Virus record (IMG/VR): IMGVR_UViG_3300042478_001549
Coordinates: 1 to 44,335 of that record
Direction: 5' to 3' (one strand)
DNA: 44,335 nucleotides
Source of the DNA: a virus
In this document: piece by piece, positions 33,218 to 44,335 of the stretch
Layout of the letters: each line of letters opens with the position of its first letter
Position numbering within the stretch: position 1 is the first letter of the stretch
The notes under the pieces: generated by a model
The model's database searches: none
The model's input: the letters and a program-made list of their open reading frames with translations, nothing else
Told to the model about the DNA's origin: nothing
Translations under genes and position numbers: made by a program

Positions 33218-33559
33218 TTAAAATTTAGTAACTTGTGGCACAATATTAACGATTCCTTCCAGAACTCTAGTGGTATTGTTACTAGAATTTTTAATTAAAA
33301 CGTCATAGACATATCTTCCAGCAGATATGTTTGCTGTATTTGCTGCACTTATAGACATGCTTAACACACCATTCACTGGTGTGGGAATGGTTATGACGAA
33401 TTGAGCTGCCGAGGTACTTGAATAGTATGACTTCTTTATCTGACTTTTTGCTTGATAACCAGTTAAATCGAAAGGTTCGTTGTCTGCATCATCCAAGGTG
33501 ATAGAAGTCGAGAAGTCGGCGCCTTGCTCAATGAATAATTCTTGATATCCTGCTGCCAT
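33218..33559 (-). CDS. Baseplate-like small beta protein
   Basis: 113 residues: YQELFIEQGADFSTSITLDD, then DLTGYQAKSQIKKSYYSSTS, then RYVYDVLIKNSSNNTTRVLE and IVNIVPQVTKF. This is the pattern of small Ig-like phage proteins (similar in style to the N-domain of BppU-type baseplate proteins) found beside fibre genes in T4-like cyanophages. A role in fibre attachment to the baseplate is inferred. It is the first gene after the late box at 33591-33598 that follows the radical SAM cassette. Confidence 0.8.
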   Translation of the reverse strand: MAAGYQELFIEQGADFSTSITLDDADNEPFDLTGYQAKSQIKKSYYSSTSAAQFVITIPTPVNGVLSMSISAANTANISAGRYVYDVLIKNSSNNTTRVLEGIVNIVPQVTKF

Positions 33560-33590
33560 GGGTTATTTCTACCTTTTATTATTATATCGG

Positions 33591-33598
33591 TATTTATC
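33591..33598 (-). promoter_or_regulatory. Late-type promoter box downstream of the accessory cassette
   Basis: The minus strand reads GATAAATA, 32 bases before the start of the 113-residue baseplate-like gene and in the 84-base gap after the last cassette gene. It fits NATAAATA and shows that the structural genes that follow have their own late promoter, independent of the cassette. Confidence 0.65.
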
Positions 33599-33643
33599 AT
33601 GTCTGAAAGACACTAAAATATTTAGGACATTTTGGACTTATCG

Positions 33644-34216
33644 TCACTCATTTGTATAGAGGAACAGATCAACTGGCATAGCTATTCTGATGTTTCCCCT
33701 ATAAGTTTCAACAAAATGATATAGAAAACTTGGAAAAACCACGGCATCACCACTCTTTGGTGTGAAAGATAGATTATCAAACCACTTTGAGAATTGATTA
33801 TCATAACCTCTATTTGAGTTCTGTCTCGGATCTGTGAAGTAAATATCACCACCAACATCTATCTCTTCACACAAGATATAAAAGATGGATGATACTGCCG
33901 CACCCTTATGGTTGTGGAAATTTGAGGCGTAGTTTTTTCCGGAACCAGTCAACCAGCCTTTTAGATTGTGACTTTTCCAATCTGAGATTTCTTTTCCCAA
34001 ACTCTCTTTCAGAAATGTATCAAAAAGTGATAACACAACTTCATCAGTAAACTTACAAATAATATCCGATTCATCGTCGAATATGTTTATGTTACTTAAA
34101 TCACCTGAAGAATTGAACATGTCATATTTGGTTAAAAAATGACTGAGAAGATTATTTCTTATTTCTTCCGAAAAATCCGTTTTCAGAAATGGTGTTGGCC
34201 ACAAATTCTGAATCAT
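33644..34216 (-). CDS. 2-oxoglutarate/Fe(II)-dependent oxygenase-like protein
   Basis: 190 residues. The start LWPTPFLKTDF and the pattern FHNHKGAAVSSIFYI, GGDIYFTDPR, GDAVVFPSFLYHFVETYRGN and IRIAMPVDLFL match the small oxygenase family often called 2OG-FeII_Oxy_5. Candidate iron ligands are His101 or His103 and His167, with Arg177 as a 2-oxoglutarate contact. Such enzymes hydroxylate proteins or small molecules, so within this cassette it may act on a peptide already altered by the radical SAM enzymes. It is the last gene of the cassette, overlapping the preceding gene by four bases (ATGA). Confidence 0.85.
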   Translation of the reverse strand: MIQNLWPTPFLKTDFSEEIRNNLLSHFLTKYDMFNSSGDLSNINIFDDESDIICKFTDEVVLSLFDTFLKESLGKEISDWKSHNLKGWLTGSGKNYASNFHNHKGAAVSSIFYILCEEIDVGGDIYFTDPRQNSNRGYDNQFSKWFDNLSFTPKSGDAVVFPSFLYHFVETYRGNIRIAMPVDLFLYTNE

Positions 34217-34608
34217 AACATGAACTCTTCCATAAAATACTTTTTCACATCTGGCACCAAACCCTTTTCTTCAAAGTTCCAGTGATTGATCTTACTCAGA
34301 ATTTCATCATATGTTTTTTGATCCAGTTCGTAATTTTTATAGTATGGGTCGTTGTCGAAAAGAAGAGACTGTTCTTTCAAATATTCTAGTGGTTCTCCAC
34401 CAAAATATTCAGACAACCATCGTGCATAACATATGCCGACCATGTAACTTTTGGCTGGATATATCCATCCTATGTTACGATCATTGAAATAACGAACAGC
34501 ATTACCAATAATATCATCTGACATTTCAACCGATTTGGTTTTCAGATCATCATCGAAATCGGTGTTGAGTCTATGATAAATTTCTTGTCTAATTTTCCAG
34601 TCTTTCAC
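34213..34608 (-). CDS. Unrecognised 131-residue cassette protein
   Basis: Starts with GTG inside the end of the preceding radical SAM gene (20-base overlap) and ends overlapping the next oxygenase gene by four bases. The protein is helical and rich in Asp, Tyr and Trp (for example IGWIYPAKSYMVGICYARWL and EYFGGEPLEYLKEQ). No domain is recognised. Small proteins of this size in radical SAM clusters are sometimes substrate carriers or leader-binding partners; that is a possibility only. The alternative is a subunit of an oxygenase. Confidence 0.75.
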   Translation of the reverse strand: MKDWKIRQEIYHRLNTDFDDDLKTKSVEMSDDIIGNAVRYFNDRNIGWIYPAKSYMVGICYARWLSEYFGGEPLEYLKEQSLLFDNDPYYKNYELDQKTYDEILSKINHWNFEEKGLVPDVKKYFMEEFML

Positions 34609-35497
34609 GATACCACTCTATTAAAAATTTATAACCATTGCAACTATTATTTAGATCCTTGACGTAACGATAGTGTTCTGTCAGGCATTTACCATAAAAC
34701 TCACAACTTCTACAGATATCACTAACGTTGTTTCGTTTTTCTTTTTGTGTCCATTTAAGGTAGTCTTCCCAACTATCCAGTTCCAAAAAATATTCATTGT
34801 CATTTAAATCGAATTCCAGTACAGCAAATTTACCATTTGGTGTGATGTAGATGTGGTCATCACTGAATGCATTTCGGTTACCATTCAGAACATCTTCAAT
34901 ATAATATTCGTTAATGAATTCAAAGTTTTTTTGTAACGGGCTTTCGATCCACTTTTTAACAAACTCCTCAAAGTCTTTGTGTGTGACGGGATGTTGATTT
35001 GCCTGGTTGGTGCTGTAAGGTTTTATTTCCACACTTCTCACACTACTACACATGTTCATCGATAATATAAAATCATCTACATCCATCTGTAATACTTTGG
35101 GGCTAGCCAAGACCAGTACGGCTATGGGTACTGGGCTCATCAACATGTTCTGATAAACTCTGTCTGACTTTTCTCTGGCTACCCAATCGTAACTAACACT
35201 CAGGTAGAAATCATCTTCATAAAAACCTTCATGCAACATTGAATAGTTGGTATTGATATTGATTTTGCCACTATAGTGTTTGCGAATCGTGTCTCTCAAT
35301 CCATAAAAGTAGTCTTTCTTTAATGTACCAATTTCACCACCATACAAATCAACATGTTCTATGTTTGGTATCTGTGATAACAAATCATCTAGTTTTTCTA
35401 ATTCTATTTTCTTCTGGTCAGACAACTGTTCTTCCGTCAGATAACAAAAGTCACATCTGAAGTTACAGAAGTAACTGGGATTAATAGAAACATTCAT
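34589..35497 (-). CDS. Radical SAM protein 1 (CX3CX2C), reduced SPASM-like C-terminus
   Basis: 302 residues. The [4Fe-4S] site is Cys11, Cys15, Cys18 (FCNFRCDFC), and GGE (53-55) contacts SAM. The C-terminal domain has Cys262, Cys265, Cys271 and Cys286 (CRSCEFYGKC, then a later Cys), which gives CX2CX5C without the fourth close Cys of a full SPASM motif. Radical SAM enzymes with such C-termini modify peptides or proteins by forming C-S, C-C or C-O links or epimers. Its start shares ATGA with the stop of radical SAM protein 2. It is shorter than the others, so it might be a partner rather than an independent catalyst. Confidence 0.9.
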   Translation of the reverse strand: MNVSINPSYFCNFRCDFCYLTEEQLSDQKKIELEKLDDLLSQIPNIEHVDLYGGEIGTLKKDYFYGLRDTIRKHYSGKININTNYSMLHEGFYEDDFYLSVSYDWVAREKSDRVYQNMLMSPVPIAVLVLASPKVLQMDVDDFILSMNMCSSVRSVEIKPYSTNQANQHPVTHKDFEEFVKKWIESPLQKNFEFINEYYIEDVLNGNRNAFSDDHIYITPNGKFAVLEFDLNDNEYFLELDSWEDYLKWTQKEKRNNVSDICRSCEFYGKCLTEHYRYVKDLNNSCNGYKFLIEWYRERLEN

Positions 35498-36564
35498 GGG
35501 TATTCTCTAACATACGGTGTAGGCTCCAGAATACCTGTCATTCCATTTGACTCGATAATATCTGGTGCCAACAGTTTCATTTTAGAACAGTGTTCTTCCA
35601 CCAAGTCATGGTCTTTTAAATCTTTGATTGTTTTCTTGCAACCATTACAAATTTGAAACATTGGGCAAGTGAAACAAGAACTTTTAAGGCTCTGTATTTC
35701 TGGTTGAAATCTCAAAGGAAATATTTTTTCACCTGACATTTCTTTTTCGAAATCTATTTGATAAAGTTTATCGTCACCAAATGCACCGCAACTATAATAG
35801 TCACCACTAGGTTGTAATGTTCGGATGTTTGCATCACAGTTTCTATTTTGTGGGCAAGTGGTTGCATGACCAACCAGTCTTTTTACCATCTGTTTTGTGT
35901 TATATTCCCACTTTGTCAAATCTTTTTTCCATATTTCAACATATATTTTATACATATATGCCAGTAAATATGGTTGCCCTTGTTGGCCCATGGTAATGTT
36001 TTTAAATTTTACCGGAGGTCCACTACTGAACGCATAGTTCAATTTACATTCCACATCCATTTCCTTGGCCAGTTCAACGTTCTTGATGGCTAGATGTTCA
36101 TTCTCCTTAGTGATAACACTTATGAAGTCCGGGCGATAACCAACAACGTCCAGCATCATATCACTGACGTTCCAGAAGTCTTCTTCACTGAACTCTGTCA
36201 AGTCACCTTTGAGTCTACCACCACCATATTGGAAACTGGTTGTAATACCCATGCGAGGATGCGTAAACAGTTCGGTCCATTTTTTGGGATTCTTATAGAA
36301 TGGCCATAGATTACTGGTAAATGATATGCGAGCATCACTACCAATTTCATTCAGATGTTCAATTATTTTCCAGTAATATTCTGGGCTCATCATTAGTGGA
36401 TCGCCACCATTAACAATTATGGTATTTGTTTCTGGATATCTCTTTAAAAACTTAAAGATATATTCGTGATCCAACTCCGCTGTCTTATCATCGGTGATGT
36501 GCGTACTTGAACAAAAGGTACACTTGAAGTTACACTTTTCAGTGGGTTTAATAATTAATTCCAT
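35494..36564 (-). CDS. Radical SAM/SPASM-type protein 2
   Basis: 356 residues. The cluster site is Cys11, Cys15, Cys18 (KCNFKCTFC), followed by GGDP (53-56) in place of the usual GGEP. In the second half a CX5C pair (CPQNRNC) and PSGDYYSCGAFGDD precede the C-terminal cluster region Cys297, Cys300, Cys306, Cys309 (CFTCPMFQICNGC), with a further Cys at 326. The spacing CX2CX5CX2C is close to, but not the same as, the SPASM CX2CX5CX3C. Probably carries one or two auxiliary iron-sulphur clusters. Four-base overlap with radical SAM protein 1, so translation is coupled. Confidence 0.92.
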   Translation of the reverse strand: MELIIKPTEKCNFKCTFCSSTHITDDKTAELDHEYIFKFLKRYPETNTIIVNGGDPLMMSPEYYWKIIEHLNEIGSDARISFTSNLWPFYKNPKKWTELFTHPRMGITTSFQYGGGRLKGDLTEFSEEDFWNVSDMMLDVVGYRPDFISVITKENEHLAIKNVELAKEMDVECKLNYAFSSGPPVKFKNITMGQQGQPYLLAYMYKIYVEIWKKDLTKWEYNTKQMVKRLVGHATTCPQNRNCDANIRTLQPSGDYYSCGAFGDDKLYQIDFEKEMSGEKIFPLRFQPEIQSLKSSCFTCPMFQICNGCKKTIKDLKDHDLVEEHCSKMKLLAPDIIESNGMTGILEPTPYVREYP

Positions 36565-36579
36565 GACAAAATTTTAGAT

Positions 36580-37692
36580 TCAATATGTCCAAGTGTAATG
36601 AAAGATGAATGTGTATCTATTAATGTCGCGTTTGATTAAGTTCCGAATGCCATGTTTGAAGATTGGTGCAGAATTGTTTACCAATACCATGACACCATCG
36701 TTTGGTAAAATGGTTTTGGTGTTTGTTATTTCTGAATTCACTTCTTTCATAATATTAATGTAACCACCCCACTCTTCTTTCCAGTCCTTTTCTTCTGTCA
36801 GATAACAGAAAACCATTAGGTCAGAACCATCGATTGCATCAACGTGATGTGGTGAATTCTCACTGCCATTCCAGAAATGAAGATACTTTGTGATGGCATT
36901 TGGTGGTCTATACATCCTTAAAGGTGAGAATGTATCATCTTTGATCAGATCATCCGAAATATCAATTAAACTCTTTGGTGCATTTGTGAAAATGTCTGCA
37001 CCAATTTTTCTTTCGTAAGATGGTCTATCATATCCGGTAGGATCAACATAATGTTTTTCGTTTTCGTGATACCAGTCTGGAACTTTTTTGTAAGTTGATT
37101 TCTTTGCATCGATCCATTTGGTATTTCTGACTTCTTCCCATAATCTTTCGTGAATATGAGGAGGAATTTTGGTCACAACGAAACCTTTATCGAAATATTC
37201 TTCAATGAAATCAATATGGTAATTTCTGTTTGAACCTGCGGCAGAATTCGCAACAATCAATCCACAAATCGTATCAAATTCACCTAGTTTTTCTTCATTG
37301 AATTTTTGTTTAGTATCATACAGTTGTTCAAATTGTGTATTGTAAACTGGTTGAATTTTTTTATTTGTGATTACATCTTTTATTAAGTTTGCCGTGTATT
37401 GTATACAGTTTATTGTTTCATCTGAATGATTTCTGAAAACTGTAAACGACCTTTTGTATCTGTTCAGTTGAAAGTAAGAATCATCTTTACCTTCTTCGAT
37501 ATCATAGGAGTAAACACCACCTTCCACATGCAATTCACCCATGAATATGTCGATGACCATGTGTATGTCTCTGCGAAGCAAGTCATATTCAAATTTAAAA
37601 TCTGTATATGTTCTTTGAACGTAATGAATTGCCTCCGAGGCAATGAAATCTTTGTTTAATTCAATTAATGGTAATATCATTTTCGTTTCCAA
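36580..37692 (-). CDS. 2OG/Fe(II) oxygenase-like protein with extra N-terminal domain
   Basis: 370 residues. The C-terminal about 210 residues are homologous to the protein at 38682-39311, sharing WNGSE(N/S), a HxD iron site (His283, Asp285), EEWGG, ILPN(D/N)G.M, the second His (347) and INRYTF with Arg359. This is the double-stranded beta-helix oxygenase pattern of prolyl 4-hydroxylase-like enzymes. The N-terminal 150 residues (MELIELNKDF-type start near YVQRTYTDFKFEYDLLRRDI) are not recognised and are absent in the shorter paralogue; they may recruit the substrate. The gene starts 32 bases inside the preceding radical SAM gene. Confidence 0.85.
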   Translation of the reverse strand: METKMILPLIELNKDFIASEAIHYVQRTYTDFKFEYDLLRRDIHMVIDIFMGELHVEGGVYSYDIEEGKDDSYFQLNRYKRSFTVFRNHSDETINCIQYTANLIKDVITNKKIQPVYNTQFEQLYDTKQKFNEEKLGEFDTICGLIVANSAAGSNRNYHIDFIEEYFDKGFVVTKIPPHIHERLWEEVRNTKWIDAKKSTYKKVPDWYHENEKHYVDPTGYDRPSYERKIGADIFTNAPKSLIDISDDLIKDDTFSPLRMYRPPNAITKYLHFWNGSENSPHHVDAIDGSDLMVFCYLTEEKDWKEEWGGYINIMKEVNSEITNTKTILPNDGVMVLVNNSAPIFKHGIRNLIKRDINRYTFIFHYTWTY

Positions 37693-38680
37693 CTTTTAAA
37701 TCAACATAGTCATAGACTTCTTTTAACCAACATGTGTCTTGAGTTCTCATGTCTTTCACGTGATTGCTCATAAAACACCCCATAGTACACCTTTGTAGGT
37801 GTTCGCATTCGTAACAATTGTAACTATCAAACCATTGTTGTTCAGTCACAACTTTAATAGGTATAACTTTCTCCAAATTCTCAAAGTAACCACAACCACC
37901 CCATTTTCCAGATGGCATAACAGTATGCGTATCCATGCATGACATTTTGTTTGCGGTTTTATTGGCAAATGTTTTGAACGGATGACAATTGTTCCAGTTC
38001 TCAAACATGTACTTCATAAAGTCACGAATCTCAATGTCTTTCGCCATTAGAAATTCATGGTTTTTTCCTGGTCCATAATAATCAAAATAGATTGGAAAGT
38101 TTTCGTACAAGTAATCAAAAAACGGTACATTGTCCGACATGAATTTATCTATATTTGGCTTCGTCATAATGACGTTGACACTGATTATATATTCTTTAAA
38201 ATCTTGTATGTTTTTTTTGTAGACTTCAAAAGTTTTTTTGTTGAATCTACCTGACGGGTCATAACTAGTCATAACCGATATTTCGTTATCGTCCAGAAAT
38301 TTCTTTATTCTTTGTTTCTTTTCCCATATAAAGTTGGTAATGAAAGAAACTTCTAAAGGTATGTTTATTTCTTTGCCGTATGCCAGTAATTTCTTGGTGA
38401 GTTCGGCGTAGTCGTCGAATACTTTATCTTCTACTGTATCCGAGAATAATTCTCCACCCATCATGTGTATGGAGATTTGCTTTTTGCCTTTTTTTATTTG
38501 CTGGTCAATTGACAATTTAATTGAGTCAAATTTACCAACTATTGTATCGATACCCTCATAGCTATCGTGGTCTTGGTTGCAGAATAAACAACTCAGATCA
38601 CAATATTCAAACAGTGTTACAATAATTTCACCAGTATCTGGTCTCTTATTGTGTATATTCAATACATGTTCAGCTATCAA
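37661..38680 (-). CDS. Radical SAM/SPASM protein 3
   Basis: 339 residues from a TTG start at 38680, since no ATG or GTG lies suitably close. Cluster site Cys27, Cys31, Cys34 (CDLSCLFC), SAM motif GGEL (75-78). The C-terminus has an exact SPASM spacing: Cys289, Cys292, Cys298, Cys302 (CYECEHLQRCTMGC) plus Cys317. The SPASM cluster usually marks enzymes that modify peptide substrates. The N-terminus is about 16 residues longer than in the other three. It starts one base after the oxygenase at 38682-39311. A late-like box at 38717-38724 lies 37 bases upstream within that gene. Confidence 0.91.
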   Translation of the reverse strand: MIAEHVLNIHNKRPDTGEIIVTLFEYCDLSCLFCNQDHDSYEGIDTIVGKFDSIKLSIDQQIKKGKKQISIHMMGGELFSDTVEDKVFDDYAELTKKLLAYGKEINIPLEVSFITNFIWEKKQRIKKFLDDNEISVMTSYDPSGRFNKKTFEVYKKNIQDFKEYIISVNVIMTKPNIDKFMSDNVPFFDYLYENFPIYFDYYGPGKNHEFLMAKDIEIRDFMKYMFENWNNCHPFKTFANKTANKMSCMDTHTVMPSGKWGGCGYFENLEKVIPIKVVTEQQWFDSYNCYECEHLQRCTMGCFMSNHVKDMRTQDTCWLKEVYDYVDLKVGNENDITIN

Positions 38681-38681
38681 T

Positions 38682-39311
38682 TTAAAACCACTTGTAAATA
38701 AAAGAGAAGGTGTATCTATTTATTGATGTGTTATGAAGTTTTTCTACCTTGTGCATGACAAGTGGGTTTGCATTGTTTATAACCAACATAGTTCCATTAT
38801 TAGGAAGAATTTTTTGTTCATAATGACAAATGTTGCCGACTTGTTTCTTCATGGTTATAGAACCGCCCCATTCACTCGACCACTTTTCGGAGTCTGTAAG
38901 ATAAATCAGAATGAGCGTGTCACATCCATTTATCGTATCGAAATGGTAATCTATACTCTCTGAACCATTCCAGAGATCAATGTATTTTAATTCGTGTGAT
39001 TTGTAGTAAGTTCTGAAAAAATCAAATTGATCATTCTCTATAAGTTTATTGCCAATTTTTATCAGTGTGATCGGAGTCTTTTCGAAAACTTCTTTTCCAA
39101 TCAGACGTTCATATTCGGATCTATTTGAACCATCTTTCTTCAATTCATATTTGTTTTTCTTTTTGTACCAAGAAGGTATTTGTTTGTAGATACCCTCTTC
39201 CGAATCATTCATCCACTCAGTCAGATAAACTTCCGACCAAAGTAATTTCAAGATATCATCAGGTACATTCGATTGAAAAAAACCTAAATCATAATAATCA
39301 TTTTGTTTCAT
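38682..39311 (-). CDS. 2OG/Fe(II) oxygenase-like protein, short paralogue
   Basis: 209 residues corresponding to the C-terminal part of the 370-residue protein at 36580-37692. Iron ligands are expected at His123, Asp125 and His187, with Arg199 contacting 2-oxoglutarate (YHFDTINGCDTLILIYLTDS, then VMHKVEKLHNTSINRYTFSF). Shared structural markers are WNGSES, SEWGG and ILPNNGTMLVINN. It likely hydroxylates a side chain of a protein or small molecule. The start shares ATGA with the stop of the upstream unrecognised gene. Confidence 0.85.
   Translation of the reverse strand: MKQNDYYDLGFFQSNVPDDILKLLWSEVYLTEWMNDSEEGIYKQIPSWYKKKNKYELKKDGSNRSEYERLIGKEVFEKTPITLIKIGNKLIENDQFDFFRTYYKSHELKYIDLWNGSESIDYHFDTINGCDTLILIYLTDSEKWSSEWGGSITMKKQVGNICHYEQKILPNNGTMLVINNANPLVMHKVEKLHNTSINRYTFSFIYKWF
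38717..38724 (-). promoter_or_regulatory. Possible late-type box within the cassette
   Basis: The minus strand reads AATAAATA inside the last codons of the oxygenase gene, 37 bases before the TTG start of radical SAM protein 3. It fits NATAAATA and the spacing seen elsewhere, but it falls in coding sequence for a conserved motif (INRYTF), so it could be fortuitous. Confidence 0.35.
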
Positions 39312-40345
39312 CTAAGTTGATATGATTTCAATTGTTCCGAGTTTTGATTTAATACATGATCCAACAAGTAGATGTTGATGTGTTCTTCGTCGCTAGATGG
39401 ATAAACTCTACTGTTCGATGTATCTTCTTTTTCCATCTGTAAAACTTTATCGACTTCTTCTTTTGTTAAGCCGCCGCGCAGCAGATCAAGCAAGTCCAGT
39501 TTCTTGATGATGGGAGAATTCTCAGAGAATTTATCCCAATTCATATAGACTTGTTTGGCTATATCTTTGAATTTCTTAATGTCTTCTTCGGAAGAATTTA
39601 TGATATCAACATTCGATGCTTCACCAACTTTACCAAGTAGTTCAGATTTATACAGTGTTGAATTGCCAAAAAATGTTTCATCGAATGGAATATTAAAGTT
39701 GGGTTTATGTTGGTTCTTATACACAGTGTGTTTTATCTCCAACAATATTTCTTGTAGTGTTCTTTTTAGAATTTTTTCTAAAGAAACAATTAATTGTGGT
39801 AAGTTTGAACCATCATGTTTATAAGACGCGACTAAAAATTCTAAACTTATCTGTTCTCTGATTGTGGTATACACTGCATCAACTTTGTCAATAGTAAGAC
39901 CACCAAATACTTTTTTGAATTCTGTTTCACTCACATCTTTGTATATTTCTACTTGTGAAGAAGAGTGATTATTTCTCCAAGATTGGCTTTTCTTCGTTTT
40001 CTTTAGATAAGAATCAACAACGAACCAAGCAGTGCTTGCATCCATATTTTTGAATAGTCTAATTAACCAATTACTTGTCAATTCGATAAAATTTTTGTCA
40101 TCAACATACACCAAAACACTTTTGTTTGTTTTTGAACTATGATCGTGTAGTGCTTTTACAAAATTATCGAAAGATTTTCCCAGATTTGCAAATTTGTCTG
40201 CATACATTAATAACTCACCATATGAAACTTTGTCCAATTGTTCGGACATTTTAATTCCATACTTCTCCGATAGCACCACTCTATCAAAGTTTATATCAAT
40301 CAAACTATCTGAAACGATATAAACTTTATTGAACAGATGAAACAT
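39308..40345 (-). CDS. Unrecognised 345-residue cassette protein
   Basis: Starts MFHLFNKVYIVSDSLIDINF and ends SEQLKSYQLR. Mostly helical with alternating strands in the first 120 residues (VLVYVDDKNFIELTSNWLIR, ASTAWFVVDSYLKKTKKSQS), no membrane segment, few cysteines and no metal motif. The N-terminal strands followed by helices suggest a Rossmann-like or receiver-like alpha/beta fold, but that is an impression. It overlaps the upstream 239-residue gene by 20 bases and the downstream oxygenase by 4, so expression is coupled with the cassette. Confidence 0.78.
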   Translation of the reverse strand: MFHLFNKVYIVSDSLIDINFDRVVLSEKYGIKMSEQLDKVSYGELLMYADKFANLGKSFDNFVKALHDHSSKTNKSVLVYVDDKNFIELTSNWLIRLFKNMDASTAWFVVDSYLKKTKKSQSWRNNHSSSQVEIYKDVSETEFKKVFGGLTIDKVDAVYTTIREQISLEFLVASYKHDGSNLPQLIVSLEKILKRTLQEILLEIKHTVYKNQHKPNFNIPFDETFFGNSTLYKSELLGKVGEASNVDIINSSEEDIKKFKDIAKQVYMNWDKFSENSPIIKKLDLLDLLRGGLTKEEVDKVLQMEKEDTSNSRVYPSSDEEHINIYLLDHVLNQNSEQLKSYQLR

Positions 40346-41045
40346 CTTTAAACTCCTGAATAGTTTTATTTTTCATTTCAACGTATTCATTTTCTTTAAC
40401 CAGCCCTTCAGCGATACCATATGTAAGCAAAAATAAAGGATTGTTTTCGTTTGCCCAGTAAGAAAATAAATTCTTACCTTTAAAAACGTACTCATTAAAA
40501 TAGTGTGAATAAAATTTTAAACTGTTTTGATTTGTGTTCTGAAAGAACGAATATAAATTTTTGTGTTTTAACAGACTTATGAAATTAACTCCGTTCATTT
40601 CTTTTGTATCATCAACCGGAAAACTATCAACGAACTGTTTAAATGCATCATCTTTGATGATATGCATATTATAAAGAGTCAAACTTTCCAGTTTAGATAT
40701 CCATTTATTCAAAATTTCTCTATTCTGTTCAATGAATTCTTTATCAATCGGCGGTATCAATCCTTTTGCTTGATGAAGAATTGCAATCGTAGAACTTTCT
40801 AAAGATGGAACATTAACAATCATGGATGTATTCAAGTAATCTTTGATCATTTCAAAGCATTCTTCATTCGAACAATCTTTAAAAGAGATATCACATGGTA
40901 TGTCCAGGTTGGAAATATATGTCAAAAGTTTTGAACCTTTTAAGGTACTGTCTTTATAGTTGATAACAAAAAAAGTTGTTTTGTCTGTGAAATATTTTTT
41001 TAAATTATCAATAGATACTGGCGCAGTTGTTTCAACGACATTCAT
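40326..41045 (-). CDS. Unrecognised 239-residue cassette protein next to the CHxS protein
   Basis: Starts MNVVETTAPVSIDNLKKYFT and is alpha/beta in character (TTFFVINYKDSTLKGSKLLT, then mainly helices to IQEFKDVSSVQ). No known domain is recognised. Its ribosome binding site (AGGAGATAATAATG) overlaps the last codons of the CHxS-tailed gene, three bases away, so its translation is directly tied to that gene. This close coupling makes it a candidate chaperone, recognition partner or processing factor for the CHxS protein; no sequence evidence decides. Confidence 0.78.
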   Translation of the reverse strand: MNVVETTAPVSIDNLKKYFTDKTTFFVINYKDSTLKGSKLLTYISNLDIPCDISFKDCSNEECFEMIKDYLNTSMIVNVPSLESSTIAILHQAKGLIPPIDKEFIEQNREILNKWISKLESLTLYNMHIIKDDAFKQFVDSFPVDDTKEMNGVNFISLLKHKNLYSFFQNTNQNSLKFYSHYFNEYVFKGKNLFSYWANENNPLFLLTYGIAEGLVKENEYVEMKNKTIQEFKDVSSVQ

Positions 41046-41047
41046 TA

Positions 41048-41620
41048 TTATCTCCTAGAACGCGAACCATGGCATGACGAATGGCAAGAAGCATGACAGA
41101 CGTTAACTTGTATAGTCACTGTACTTCCTCTTGCACTATTATATGTACTTCTTAATGTGTTAAAGAATGATTCTAGATTTGTGGCAGACGCGACATTTCC
41201 GGAAGCTACACCATTATTTGCTGGTGTACCAATGCTTTGAAGATAACTACCGTTCATGTACGCAACAGCTGTTTGGTCGTAAATAACACCGGGTGTTGGG
41301 CGTGAACCGGTGTTGCCACCGGCGCCATCGACAAACAATATCGCACGTAAGTTCCTGATTGAAGTGTATGCCGCAGTTTCATTCACAAGTGTATTGTAAA
41401 TATTTGATGCTGTAATTCTTGTGCCGGAAGAACCAATACTTCCTCCATTTATGCCTATTGCTCTTCCACTAGTTGAACCACCAAAATATCCACCATCAAA
41501 TTCTGCAAATGGATATGCGTTTGTGCCCCATGAAATACCTGAAGCTGATGTTGCGGTTACGTAATCTGCAAATCTATCAACGATGTTTTGTGTTCTTATA
41601 GGGTTAGTTAATGTTGCCAT
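41048..41620 (-). CDS. CHxS-tailed protein, candidate substrate of the radical SAM cassette
   Basis: 190 residues, Gly/Ser/Thr/Asn/Ala-rich with a beta-type body (for example FAEFDGGYFGGSTSGRAIGI and NLRAILFVDGAGGNTGSRPT), similar in style to phage tail proteins. The body has no cysteine and no histidine. All three Cys and all three His lie in residues 175-184 as three Cys-His-Xaa-Ser units (CHAS, CHSS, CHGS; bases 41063-41098), followed by the basic end RSRR. No signal peptide. The His-Xaa-Ser repeat recalls HxsA substrates of paired radical SAM maturases, and a full SPASM radical SAM gene begins upstream, overlapping by 17 bases. Alternatives: the tail binds iron or zinc as a pointed virion tip, without modification. 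Confidence 0.8.
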   Translation of the reverse strand: MATLTNPIRTQNIVDRFADYVTATSASGISWGTNAYPFAEFDGGYFGGSTSGRAIGINGGSIGSSGTRITASNIYNTLVNETAAYTSIRNLRAILFVDGAGGNTGSRPTPGVIYDQTAVAYMNGSYLQSIGTPANNGVASGNVASATNLESFFNTLRSTYNSARGSTVTIQVNVCHASCHSSCHGSRSRR

Positions 41621-42659
41621 CTTTTAATATCCATACTTTTCTTTTTTGATTGCTTTTTAAGAATCTCATCAAACTTTTTGGTGCACCACACACATCATTT
41701 TCCCATTCTAGTTGATGACAATCTCCGCCACAATATTCAAATACATCACACGAATAACATCTAGGATCCCTAGACCTTTCACATGCAATGTTTTCCAATC
41801 TGGTTGGACTATTTATAAGGCTTTCTATATCATCATCTATCGTGCCAAATTGAAACTCCGGTGCAGAATTTGGGCATCCAGATATGGTTCCATCCGCATT
41901 TAGTGTGAATAACTTCTCTTCACAATCTCTACAGAATGTTCCGCCTGCGGTGAAACCCGTTTCGAATTTATTGTACACCGTTTCCAGAAATTCATTATCA
42001 AACCAACCTCTTGCACCATGTTCTTCACTCTGATGGTGCATCTTCAGAAACCATTCGTCCTGTTCCACATTTGTGGGAAATATATGTAGGTTTTGTTTGG
42101 CACTGCCGTTCATCGTCAGTCTTTCTAGTGCCAGTTCTTTGACACCGAGTGATCTGACCCACTCTAGTAGTTCGATAGGTTCAATTGCAATCGTGCCTTT
42201 AGTTACACTGATGAATAGTTTCACAACGACACCCATATCAATCAGTGTCTGCACATTCTTTCTCCACAGATCATACTGTTTAGGATTTGCAAATCGAATA
42301 TCTGGATCCCAACTGGTACCGACTCTGCCACCCAATGGACCCATAATGAAGTCTATTTTTTCTTGGTCTAGTTTGAAAGCCAGATTGGTTGTGATGCCCC
42401 AACTTTGACTTTTCCATAAGTTCTGGCAATTGTCATACACATACTGCATAGAAGATATATCTGCCAAGAATGGTTCGCCACCATGAAATTCAAAGTGAAC
42501 GTGTGGTGCATATTGTGTTTGTGCTGCCATTCTGTGTAACCAGTCGGCAACCTTGATGTGATTCCAATATATCTTTGCGCCTTTGGAACCACTGGTAAAA
42601 CAATGTAAACAGTTTAAGTTACAAGTTTCCGTCGTCTTCAAATAGAACATTAAGTCCAT
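41604..42659 (-). CDS. Radical SAM/SPASM protein 4, adjacent to the CHxS protein
   Basis: 351 residues. Cluster site Cys13, Cys17, Cys20 (CNLNCLHC), SAM motif GGEP (60-63). The C-terminal half has the pre-SPASM pattern CRDCEEKLFTLNADGTISGC and then an exact SPASM set Cys301, Cys304, Cys310, Cys314 (CYSCDVFEYCGGDC) with Cys324. This is the anaerobic-sulfatase-maturase-like architecture, whose members oxidise or cross-link peptide side chains. Its stop overlaps the start of the CHxS-tailed gene by 17 bases, which makes that protein the first candidate substrate. The start overlaps the upstream cupin-like gene. Confidence 0.94.
   Translation of the reverse strand: MDLMFYLKTTETCNLNCLHCFTSGSKGAKIYWNHIKVADWLHRMAAQTQYAPHVHFEFHGGEPFLADISSMQYVYDNCQNLWKSQSWGITTNLAFKLDQEKIDFIMGPLGGRVGTSWDPDIRFANPKQYDLWRKNVQTLIDMGVVVKLFISVTKGTIAIEPIELLEWVRSLGVKELALERLTMNGSAKQNLHIFPTNVEQDEWFLKMHHQSEEHGARGWFDNEFLETVYNKFETGFTAGGTFCRDCEEKLFTLNADGTISGCPNSAPEFQFGTIDDDIESLINSPTRLENIACERSRDPRCYSCDVFEYCGGDCHQLEWENDVCGAPKSLMRFLKSNQKRKVWILKDGNIN
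41810..41817 (-). promoter_or_regulatory. Perfect T4-type late box inside radical SAM gene 4
   Basis: The minus strand reads TATAAATA, the full T4 late consensus, about 190 bases before the start of the CHxS-tailed gene. It codes for part of the SLINSP segment of the radical SAM protein. If active it would give late transcription of the CHxS gene and the genes that follow, independent of radical SAM protein 4. Coding constraint and AT-richness allow a chance match. Confidence 0.4.
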
Positions 42660-43134
42660 GATTTATCTTTTCAACATAAAATTTTTCTAATCCAAAACTC
42701 AATATCAAAGACTTGTCTTCATTAATGATCTCATGTGGTGTGTTGGCTGGTATATAGATACAGTCACCACTTTTCAATACATTTTTCACATCATTAACAA
42801 ACAGAGTTTTTGAGCCGAAAATACATTCAATTATAACATCATCCGGATCTATATGCAAACCAAAACTTTTGGAACCTTTGAATGCCAGAAATGCATGACA
42901 AGTTACCGGACCATTATGTGAGTATTTTTTTCTAAGGTTCTGGCATTTCTGAAAAATACTTTGACTGTATTTTTCCATTTGTTCCAGTTTTATGGTGCTG
43001 CCTGTATGTTTATATAGTTCACCAATTCCATCCAGAAATATTTGACGCGATTGATCATCAATGACAGAGATTATTTTCTGTTCATATACCAAATCGGTGT
43101 GTAAGAAGTTTTCAAACTCATCTAGTGTAATCAT
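42619..43134 (-). CDS. Cupin/JmjC-like oxygenase, first cassette gene
   Basis: 171 residues from ATG 43134 (MITLDEFENF); an upstream TTG at 43143 gives three more residues but has no better ribosome binding site. The C-terminal half shows a cupin/JmjC barrel: FKGSKSFGLHIDPDDVIIEC with His94 and Asp96, LKSGDCIYIPANTPHEIINE with His134, then LSFGLEKF. This fits the Fe(II) site of cupin_8/JmjC hydroxylases, which hydroxylate proteins, but a simple metal-binding cupin is possible. It overlaps radical SAM gene 4 by 41 bases. Confidence 0.82.
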   Translation of the reverse strand: MITLDEFENFLHTDLVYEQKIISVIDDQSRQIFLDGIGELYKHTGSTIKLEQMEKYSQSIFQKCQNLRKKYSHNGPVTCHAFLAFKGSKSFGLHIDPDDVIIECIFGSKTLFVNDVKNVLKSGDCIYIPANTPHEIINEDKSLILSFGLEKFYVEKINHGLNVLFEDDGNL

Positions 43135-43166
43135 AACAATCAAAAAGTAAAAATGACTTTTCGGAA

Positions 43167-43206
43167 CCTGAGATGCGCGGCGATTTTTTTCGGGCCGGAT
43201 CTCAGG
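43167..43206 (-). terminator. GC-rich hairpin between the tail fibre and the accessory cassette
   Basis: Outer perfect 8-base-pair arms (43167-43174 with 43199-43206) enclose a second pairing (CGGC with GCCG) and a third (CGA with TCG) around an A/T-run loop. Weaker pairing continues outside the arms. It is 10 bases beyond the fibre stop at 43217. It stands out as GC-rich in an AT-rich region. The transcript after it is only moderately T-rich (GTTCCGAAAAGTCATTTTTA), so termination is plausible but not certain. The alternative is an RNA structure or a recombination site at the cassette edge. Confidence 0.65.
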
Positions 43207-43216
43207 ATTTCGAAAT

Positions 43217-44335
43217 TTATAAAATCACTGCTTCAATTAGTTTTACTCCAGTATCATCACTCGATTCTAGTGCGATTGCGAAAACGTCATTTGCATGTGG
43301 CACTGCTGCAACAGCCGTACCGTTGTTATATGCAACCAAACGTTGTCCTTTACGCACAGTGCCAGATACTTTCACTGGAACCCTACCTTTAAGTGCAATA
43401 TAAGTTCCACCTTCCAGTTCACTGTTCATCATATAAGCAGGATGAGCAGATACTACTCCGATTGCTCTATCTCCATATGAACCAGCGGTAACTTCTGCTT
43501 CGCCACCAACAGCAACAACTGTTCCAACTTCATATTCTTGATCAGCCAAATACTTTTCTGCCAAGTCAGCGTAGTTGGCACTAGTTGCAAGACCTCTGAA
43601 CACTGTTGCGTATATGTCACCCGAACCATCTCTTGCAGCAATTTTATTTGCGGTACCTGTTGTCGTGGCATCAACAGACCATGTTCTTGATGTGCTGCCA
43701 TTGTAAACATCACCAACCAAATATGTTCCCGCTGAGTGTGAAGATAAAGTTCCACCCAAGGAAACACCAGAAATTGTGCTACTTGACAACTGTGTATTCG
43801 TAATACCAGCACTAGCACTCAATTGTGTGGTTGTGATGCCACTCAGTCTAGCGAGAGGAACAGTACCACTGGAAAGATTACTTGCATTCAATGCACTACT
43901 TGCTGTTGAGAAAGCCGAATTGGCTTGAGTGAATGCGGAGTTTGCATATGATCCGGCAGTGACAGCTTTAGAGTCTGCTGTTGCAGCATTGGTTGTTGCA
44001 GTGTTCGCTTGAGCGTAACCAGCATTAGCTTGTCTAAAAGCACCATTGGCGTATAGAGAAGCACCTGCGGCATTATTAGTTGCGGTATTAGCCTGACCAT
44101 ATGCTGAGTTTGCATAAGAACCAGCCGTAACAGCTTTGGAGTCTGCTATTGCTGCATTGGTTGTAGCAGTGTTTGCTTGTCCGTATGCGGAGTTAGCATA
44201 AGAACCAGCTGTTACTGCTTTACTGTCGGCTGTGGCTGCATTAGTGGTCGCAGTGTTTGCTTGTGTAAAAGCACCATTTGCATATAGTGCAGCCGAATTC
44301 GCTATAGCATCTGGTGTATTGGCTCTCAAGAACGC
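43217..44335 (-). CDS. Tail fibre protein, C-terminal part (5' end beyond window)
   Basis: The frame is open to the right edge (first visible residues AFLRANTPDAIANSAALYAN), so the N-terminus is missing. About four copies of a 28-residue shaft unit (QANTATTNAATADSKAVTAG plus SYANSAYG) lead to a beta-helical part (LARLSGITTTQLSASAGITN) and a C-terminal domain DLAEKYLADQEYEVGTVVAV, then AIGVVSAHPAYMMNSELEGG, ending LIEAVIL. This C-terminal domain is common on tail fibres of T4-like cyanophages and myoviruses. The same shaft unit occurs in the 1294-residue fibre at 25809-29693. Confidence 0.85.
   Translation of the reverse strand, partial: AFLRANTPDAIANSAALYANGAFTQANTATTNAATADSKAVTAGSYANSAYGQANTATTNAAIADSKAVTAGSYANSAYGQANTATNNAAGASLYANGAFRQANAGYAQANTATTNAATADSKAVTAGSYANSAFTQANSAFSTASSALNASNLSSGTVPLARLSGITTTQLSASAGITNTQLSSSTISGVSLGGTLSSHSAGTYLVGDVYNGSTSRTWSVDATTTGTANKIAARDGSGDIYATVFRGLATSANYADLAEKYLADQEYEVGTVVAVGGEAEVTAGSYGDRAIGVVSAHPAYMMNSELEGGTYIALKGRVPVKVSGTVRKGQRLVAYNNGTAVAAVPHANDVFAIALESSDDTGVKLIEAVIL

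Follow-up and report, generated by a model that had tools for sequence, protein, structure and literature searches.

A phage cassette of radical SAM enzymes and oxygenases that probably modifies the fixed Cys-His-x-Ser tail of a fibre-associated protein

Introduction

When a phage carries four radical S-adenosylmethionine (SAM) proteins and four oxygenase-like proteins in one compact block beside its tail fibres, the question arises of what these enzymes act on. The block studied here is a cassette of twelve genes in IMG/VR virus record IMGVR_UViG_3300042478_001549 (positions 1 to 44,335; this whole 44,335-nt stretch is called the window below). An initial annotation of the DNA counted the genes correctly; however, it did not single out the third of them, which encodes the probable substrate, a 190-aa protein that we call SUB. 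We propose that the cassette is a maturation system resembling those of ribosomally synthesized and post-translationally modified peptides (RiPPs), and that its modification remains in place on a virion- or fibre-associated protein with a role in attachment. We give this reading a probability of about 0.66. The broader reading offered by the initial annotation, a multi-step modification of a protein or peptide, is supported.

Results

The C-terminal tail of SUB is VCHASCHSSCHGSRSRR, which consists of three Cys-His-x-Ser units followed by RxRR. A DNA pattern for it, (CHxx)3RxRR-stop, matched once in the window and in none of 100 shuffles, and a control with Cys and His swapped gave 0 matches; a chance origin of the tail was rejected on these counts. 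Many of the contigs carrying the pattern are near-duplicates, and there are 165 distinct tail proteins, or 179 when genome hits are included. Conservation was counted over 179 of 240 rows, each distinct stretch of the last 120 residues being used once. Among the tail columns that the pattern leaves free, Ser was present in 165 of 179 rows, Ser or Asn in 174, and Ser, Ala or Asn in all 179; Gly was present in 163. Because the free columns are conserved too, tail conservation was not created by the search pattern. A conserved core rich in modifiable residues, as looked for in a RiPP precursor, was found across the 179 distinct tails. The last repeat also reads C-x-x-x-R, as in sulfatases. The formylglycine consensus of sulfatases has Pro or Ala at position 3, which is mostly Gly, Ser or Thr here, and formylglycine at the last tail Cys is a possibility with that mismatch.

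A structural model of SUB built from 79 sequences (mean predicted local distance difference test score, pLDDT, 86.7) has helices and strands from about residue 10 to 174, and a tail with no secondary structure and a pLDDT of 53 over the last ten residues. PHROG 35144 (unknown function) matches the last 44 residues. The body had no match in the PDB at E 0.001 and none at Z 2, which does not in itself prove a new fold; in BFVD it had five matches at E <=0.001. Among these was a 296-aa protein of phage Atu_ph07 (E 4e-7), the same length as gene product gp170 of that phage. In Phosso, Atu_ph07, SURPRISE13, DT01, FLC6 and FLC8, which are jumbo phages from different groups, the gene after rSAM-A (the first radical SAM gene of the cassette) encodes a different body with the same kind of tail; in FLC6 this protein is gp72. 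A tblastn search with SUB against the phage collection returned nothing, and these relatives were reached through the neighbouring enzymes instead; the silence is probably explained by the sharing mainly of the short tail and the fold. Overall, the body varies and the tail behaves like a chemical unit that stays fixed.

Variants of SUB were also seen. A version with four repeats occurs in 5 viral contigs only (L037, L244-L247). At L377:7617-8186, between rSAM-A and the gene for P20767 (the phrog_20767 protein), four CH units are followed by a Gly-rich end, CHSSCHYSCHSSCHGDGPGNGGGV, which replaces RGRR. A second substrate class (L048, L072, L089) comprises proteins of about 127 aa, usually encoded as tandem pairs in a rearranged gene order; their bodies are unrelated by BLAST and the tail is the same, and 41 tail proteins are 124-140 aa long.

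Linkage between the tail and the enzymes was examined from both sides. Run over viral contigs and blind to the enzymes, the tail pattern found at least 120 viral stretches, the swapped control 0 contigs. Profiles of the window's enzymes gave a radical SAM match in 98 of 120 of these loci among the matches listed. Of the remaining 22, 18 were searched over the whole record and 17 held a PF04055 match at E <=0.001 (two of them weak, E 3e-4), the other being an 18-kb record with none. Radical SAM genes are thus present in the locus or record of 115 of the 116 tail-first stretches examined (of at least 120). When rSAM-A was the starting point (77 loci), SUB lay directly downstream in 68 and one or two genes further in 5, and the contig end was reached in 4; SUB is present in all 73 loci that reach far enough. 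Starting from P20767, the tail was found in 80 of 80 loci (best 80 of 153). The figure from rSAM-C, 61 of 80 loci with the exact tail (best 80 of 317), limits our reading. In twelve of the 19 exceptions the rSAM-C match begins within the first 4 kb of the sequence available; L330 and L342 have the tail gene further upstream in the same contigs (L131, L141); in L397, L399, L401 and L404 rSAM-A adjoins rSAM-C, as in the rearranged twin-substrate order; and L377 has the variant tail described above.

Gene occupancy was counted in 52 loci whose SUB proteins are distinct and whose flanks reach at least 9 kb downstream and 2 kb upstream. P20767 and rSAM-A were present in all 52, followed by rSAM-B (51), U345 (49), rSAM-C and the cupin (48 each), rSAM-D (47), OG3 (39), S131 (33), OG1 (25) and OG2 (18). 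Four radical SAM matches were found in 45 of these loci, three in 5 and two in 2. The neighbourhood check proposed with the initial annotation therefore shows that the cassette genes travel together. Scattered genes and the lack of a conserved substrate gene had been named as the outcome that would speak against a system, and the opposite was found, a conserved candidate substrate included. By this linkage the candidate precursor is encoded beside its putative modifying enzymes, as is looked for in RiPP systems.

We were also curious about how fast the parts diverge. For 62 loci with a SUB of 150-260 aa, excluding pairs above 0.95 rSAM-A identity (1873 pairs), mean identity was 0.837 for the SUB tail and 0.361 for the SUB body, compared with 0.675 for rSAM-C, 0.574 for rSAM-A and 0.406 for P20767; the seven tail columns that are free in the search pattern averaged 0.627. 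In the co-evolution set (42 of 48 loci, near-copies removed and all parts present), rSAM-D averaged 0.545, rSAM-B 0.388 and the SUB body 0.382. Of the four radical SAM proteins, rSAM-C varies least between loci. With all four of these controlled for, distances of P20767 and the SUB body remained correlated (partial r 0.448, 0/500 permutations); for rSAM-A and the SUB body, though adjacent too, partial r was 0.095 across the 42 loci. P20767 thus behaves as a partner specific for the SUB body, and the co-evolution suggests that it may bind this body.

These figures bear on a rival explanation in which SUB is an iron-sulfur or iron carrier, its tail supplying clusters or iron to enzymes that have another target, such as tRNA, a surface sugar or a fibre protein. 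Its Cys-His-rich tail would suit a carrier, the set holds many Fe-S and Fe(II) enzymes, and marine T4-like phages have Fe-S genes (PMC5332604; the papers that we cite by PMC number were at hand as partial texts, and our statements on them refer to those parts). However, the body (0.36) is more divergent than rSAM-A (0.57), rSAM-C (0.68) and rSAM-D, an argument weakened by the 0.388 of rSAM-B; the tail Ser and Gly are fixed like a recognition sequence; and in Atu_ph07 gp170 opens a cluster of virion proteins. We consider a carrier rather unlikely.

All four radical SAM proteins named in the initial annotation match PHROG 1802, 'radical SAM' (E 2e-32 to 7e-66). rSAM-C passes the Pfam radical SAM cut-off (41.2 bits vs 29.5), rSAM-D is 0.1 bit short of it, and rSAM-A and rSAM-B are below it (E 5e-4 and 3e-4). 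In rSAM-A, CxxxCxxC and eight more Cys are invariant among 14 aligned sequences, and the SPASM profile TIGR04085 scores 35 bits against a cut-off of 27, which places it among SPASM-type enzymes. Its nearest NCBIfam profiles are PapB, anSME and DynA, and 8vpo, 5wgg (presumably CteB), anSME 4k36-4k39 and ChlB 9gm3 are among the solved structures that it matches. In the phylogeny called for by the initial annotation (65 radical SAM sequences), the four proteins form separate orthologue clades, with support of 100/99 to 100/100 for B, C and D and 93/91 for A; the pairing of A+B and C+D reaches 86/68 only and carries a long-branch warning. Assignment to a characterised family was rejected for the PapB ranthipeptide maturase (NF047865, 47.6 bits vs cut-off 340), anSME (TIGR03942, 43.3 for rSAM-A and 47.3 for rSAM-C vs 349.45), the His-Xaa-Ser enzymes (HxsB 36 vs 370, HxsC 28.5 vs 267.9) and viperin (NF038283, 26.6 and 27.3 vs 180). 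The viperin scores, together with the SPASM-type Cys pattern of rSAM-A and the linkage of a tail protein to the set, make an action on nucleotides, by a viperin-like set or another one for host takeover or counter-defence, extremely improbable, an idea raised by weak PADLOC pVip matches of rSAM-A, -C and -D that mostly cover about 60-85 N-terminal residues. Further radical SAM-like proteins with GCxxxCxGC, outside the four core families, occur at L004:16934-18965, L239:13722-15898 and L243:11874-12971.

The oxygenases likewise agree with the initial annotation, which had listed three 2-oxoglutarate (2OG)/Fe(II)-like proteins and one cupin/JmjC-like protein (Table 1). The cupin scores 38 bits against PF08007 (JmjC_2; cut-off 22) and also matches PF07883. 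H94, D96 and H134, an HxD...H triad, are invariant among 23 aligned sequences and are likely Fe ligands; the protein thus has both the domain and the triad looked for in JmjC_2/ROX enzymes. Among solved structures its profile best matches quercetin 2,3-dioxygenase (E 1e-9) and other cupins, and the histidyl hydroxylase MINA53 ranks after these (E 9e-6). A profile of the 2OG proteins had no match among solved structures, which is again no proof of a new fold. Since the cassettes of Atu_ph07 and Phosso lack a 2OG match, these oxygenases appear not to be essential.

The P20767 model has a mean pLDDT of 92. It had no PDB match at E 0.001 (best VIA Z 3.9 over 57 residues), which does not prove a new fold; we propose P20767 as a chaperone or presenter of SUB. 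None of the twelve proteins has a Pfam match to the PqqD-like RiPP recognition element. No protease or exporter was recognised by Pfam or PHROG (twelve proteins) or by NCBIfam (ten), and U345, P20767 and S131 have no assigned function. Because no leader protease or exporter was recognised, the tail probably stays on the protein. The same result argues against release of the tail as a modified toxin, signal or anti-competitor peptide in the manner of classical RiPPs, with the proviso that one of the three unassigned proteins could have such a role. The RiPP-like gene set and the basic RxRR end would fit a released peptide, but the tail is near-invariant across phage groups and is carried by a large body that is itself probably in virions. 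We regard release as very improbable.

A link to the virion comes from two sources. In Atu_ph07, virion proteins identified by electrospray ionization tandem mass spectrometry come mostly from coding sequences 31-76, 170-215 and 284-329 (PMC6102473). In the record of this phage SUB is gp170, and the baseplate wedge subunit is gp181, in agreement with the numbering of that paper; the virion-protein cluster 170-215 therefore begins at SUB. The second source is the fibre region in which the initial annotation had placed the cassette. Among 117 phage loci with the cupin and enough sequence, a gene with the C-terminal domain of the window's tail-fibre-like protein lies within 3 kb upstream on the same strand in 70, in 67 of them within about 200 nt, and the annotated setting is borne out by this recurrence. 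The T4 gp37 HxH tip trimerises and coordinates metal. With this in mind, the tail of SUB could be an unmodified, metal-binding, trimerising tip whose neighbouring enzymes modify the adjacent fibre, and both the repeated Cys-His pairs and the fibre neighbours would suit it. On the other hand, SUB sits right after rSAM-A in most loci and is present in all that reach far enough, and 47 of the 117 loci gave no fibre neighbour; such a tip is improbable.

The cassette is not confined to phages. The tail pattern was found in 19 stretches among 84,980 GTDB bacterial and archaeal genomes, 16 of them with an open reading frame (ORF) ending in the motif; stretches from Frankia, Pseudoalteromonas and Bordetella were rejected because no ORF ends in it. 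Eight records bear the names Bacteriovorax, Bacteriovoracaceae, Halobacteriovoraceae or Bdellovibrionaceae (NCBI phylum Bdellovibrionota), and one further genome is placed in that phylum group; the motif is rare in that phylum (8 of 290 genomes), which limits what can be drawn from it. Five of these loci were extended to 19.5 kb (L239-L243). The cassette neighbours are pyruvate kinase and ABC transporter genes in L239, an FHA-domain gene in L240, cbb3-type oxidase genes in L241, feoB in L242, and AMP-binding and acyl-carrier-protein-synthase-III genes in L243. These neighbours indicate a cellular (chromosomal) setting. A Peptidase_S74 protein was nearby in 4 of 6 loci inspected (L205/L239, L221, L240, L241; selected neighbours scanned), and a prepilin N_methyl match was above cut-off in L205 and below it in L221. 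S74 is a chaperone domain of tail spikes and fibres, and the Bdellovibrionota organisms concerned are predators. A tentative idea, to which we give somewhat less than even odds, is that tailed phages of several groups and predatory Bdellovibrionota share a tip on a fibre-associated protein, an enzyme-made, non-canonical, cross-linked or metal-binding tail of three CHxS units that grips or breaches the prey envelope. To our knowledge, no virion with a modification made by radical SAM enzymes has been described before, and this one would be the first.

Other features of these bacterial loci were noted. An uncharacterised protein with a C-terminal end of about WVKVK or WVQVK adjoins the Peptidase_S74 protein in four of them (L205:7153-7704, L221:1563-2153, L240:5198-5824, L241:930-1526). 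An extra radical SAM protein is encoded at L240:15072-16808 and L241:3569-5278. The L240 copy has a B12-binding match below cut-off (26.2 bits vs 32.1), which suggests that it may carry out cobalamin-dependent methylation; the L241 protein resembles it by its start only.

The layout of the cassette is summarised in Table 1. The virus is a myovirus, which we read as T4-like; genes for head, scaffold, portal, tail sheath, sheath stabiliser and terminase are present. Twelve ORFs of at least 120 aa overlap 33500-43200, all on the minus strand and spanning 33644-43143, and they comprise four radical SAM proteins, three 2OG oxygenases, one JmjC/cupin oxygenase, three helpers and one small protein. 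The eleven junctions, read 5' to 3', are -41, -17, +2, -20, -4, +1, -32, +15, -4, -20 and -4 nt. Eight overlap, three of these by 4 nt of the ATGA type, and the widest gap is 15 nt; the 5' ends of rSAM-B and OG2 (TTG starts) and of S131 (GTG start) are uncertain. Tight packing of twelve genes, as annotated, is thus confirmed, and from the overlaps their translational coupling is plausible. A promoter scan was uninformative, with 42 sites vs 45 expected. A similar order recurs in other phages, so the grouping is not due to chance. Two tandem genes annotated as dihydrofolate reductase lie inside Burkholderia phage cassettes (L003:16406-17583, L005:16319-17532). In FLC6, a gene annotated as a GIY-YIG nuclease (L005:8555-9463) sits between a virion structural gene and the cupin, and an Atu_ph07 gene a few genes upstream (L002:5243-5956) resembles it as judged by reading the sequences; both are possible homing insertions.

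Table 1. Positions of the cassette genes and their immediate neighbours in the window
Feature	Position	Strand	Basis
Cupin/JmjC_2 oxygenase, first gene	42619..43134	-	PF08007, PF07883
rSAM-A, radical SAM with SPASM domain	41604..42659	-	PHROG 1802, Cys pattern
SUB, candidate substrate, 190 aa	41048..41620	-	folded body ~10-174 and C-terminal tail VCHASCHSSCHGSRSRR
Codons of the last 16 residues of SUB, likely modified segment	41051..41098	-	no secondary structure in model
P20767, phrog_20767 protein	40326..41045	-	PHROG match; co-evolution with SUB body
U345, 345-aa protein without assigned function	39308..40345	-	family in 49/52 complete loci
OG1, 2OG-Fe(II) oxygenase	38682..39311	-	PF13640
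rSAM-B, radical SAM, TTG start	37661..38680	-	PHROG 1802; SPASM-like Cys pattern from sequence
OG2, TTG start, longer protein with C-terminal 2OG-Fe(II) oxygenase domain	36580..37692	-	PF13640
rSAM-C, radical SAM	35494..36564	-	Pfam cut-off passed; PHROG 1802
rSAM-D, radical SAM	34589..35497	-	PHROG 1802; SPASM cysteines partly visible
S131, phrog_20737 helper, GTG start	34213..34608	-	PHROG match
OG3, 2OG-Fe(II) oxygenase	33644..34216	-	PF13759, phrog_81
Context, directly upstream: tail-fibre-like protein	43217..44335	-	C-terminal domain recurs upstream of other phages' cassettes
Context, directly downstream: LtfC-like protein	33218..33559	-	PHROG 'L-shaped tail fiber protein assembly'

Discussion

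The gene set, its linkage, the fixed tail on a variable body and the co-evolution were observed directly; we infer that SUB is the substrate, which residues are modified, its position in the virion and its role in attachment. In the mechanism that we propose, SUB would be synthesised with a folded domain and a flexible tail that holds three Cys-His-x-Ser units and RxRR. P20767 would bind the body and present the tail. The radical SAM enzymes would then act on the repeated Cys, His and Ser residues, most likely by cross-linking or related radical chemistry; hydroxylation of tail residues would fall to the cupin and the 2OG oxygenases. We can only guess at the precise chemistry: the cross-links could be thioether or C-C bonds at Cys, His or Ser, and the cupin could hydroxylate His or Arg. 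The modified tail would be retained on SUB, which may join the neighbouring fibres in the virion and serve attachment to the host envelope.

Several points weigh against this proposal. Modification of the SUB tail is a prediction, and SUB itself has no match in Pfam or NCBIfam up to E 1. RiPP cores usually vary and their leaders are conserved, the reverse of what we found. Divergence of the SUB body is not special, with rSAM-B equally divergent (0.388 vs 0.382), and because adjacent genes share their history, the co-evolution may look stronger than it is. Among 146 distinct loci that extend 900 nt or more downstream, 12 gave no P20767 match, and the cassettes of Atu_ph07 and Phosso have no 2OG match using our hidden Markov models. 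Detection of gp170 in Atu_ph07 virions, as read from the cluster limits, is likely but not proven, and the loci with no fibre neighbour found count on the same side.

If the proposal is true, phages equip a protein of their particle by elaborate enzymatic chemistry, and the view of virion proteins and adsorption would change. The sets of four or more radical SAM genes in phage papers, so far listed without a role, would receive one, and radical SAM enzymology would gain a well-defined system in which several enzymes act on a short tail of fixed sequence. If predatory bacteria use it too, this would suggest a common way of attaching to bacterial envelopes. Because the cassette occurs in the isolated phages FLC6, FLC8, SURPRISE13, Atu_ph07, Phosso and DT01, these ideas are directly testable.

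The initial annotation knew of no described phage system with this set. That holds for the function; it does not hold for the genes, which have been named singly in papers on FLC6 (PMC8066314) and S13 (PMC11898562). Radical SAM genes were named without a joint function in RP12/RP31 (PMC5468394), eight in a structural cluster of 332-Vera were termed highly unusual (PMC12390700), and a T4-like marine genome has 12 (PMC5332604). In pelagimyophages MAGV3 and MAGV16, the HRC regions (host-recognition clusters, as we read it) differ by radical SAM cassettes (PMC7029224), and Tasman Sea viral samples are enriched in such genes (PMC7150976). The available parts of these phage papers propose no substrate, tail motif or joint function. 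In the main text at hand, a paper on a related Sinorhizobium phage (PMC11242549) contains neither 'radical' nor 'oxygenase', and PMC9062424, which touches on His-Xaa-Ser RiPPs, does not contain 'phage'. A search of full-text literature, with subscription papers and most preprints outside its scope, found no paper whose title or abstract describes the substrate or system.

Among known systems, the radical SAM/SPASM RiPP clusters and their relatives (ranthipeptide PapB, SCIFF maturase CteB, anSME, darobactin/dynobactin, FxsB/GrrM cyclophanes) share the SPASM enzyme beside a ribosomal precursor in which modifiable residues are repeated. In contrast, the cassette enzymes score far below the equivalog cut-offs (as for PapB, 47.6 vs 340), the core is fixed on a folded and variable body, four different radical SAM proteins are combined with oxygenases, and no protease or exporter is recognised among the cassette proteins; the setting is a phage fibre region and the precursor is apparently structural. 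The His-Xaa-Ser system shares the idea of two radical SAM enzymes and an H-x-S motif (C-H-x-S in the cassette repeat), but each cassette repeat begins with Cys, the tail ends in RxRR, and the HxsB and HxsC cut-offs are failed. JmjC_2/ROX enzymes such as the histidyl hydroxylase MINA53 act on ribosomal substrates. The cassette cupin shares PF08007 and the HxD...H triad with them, although it is small and single-domain and its closest solved structures are other cupins. RP12/RP31, 332-Vera and pelagimyophages MAGV3/MAGV16 resemble the window by their radical SAM genes, as far as the partial texts go, and FLC6 and S13, the latter taken to be the record SURPRISE13 with the same gp numbers, carry this same cassette.

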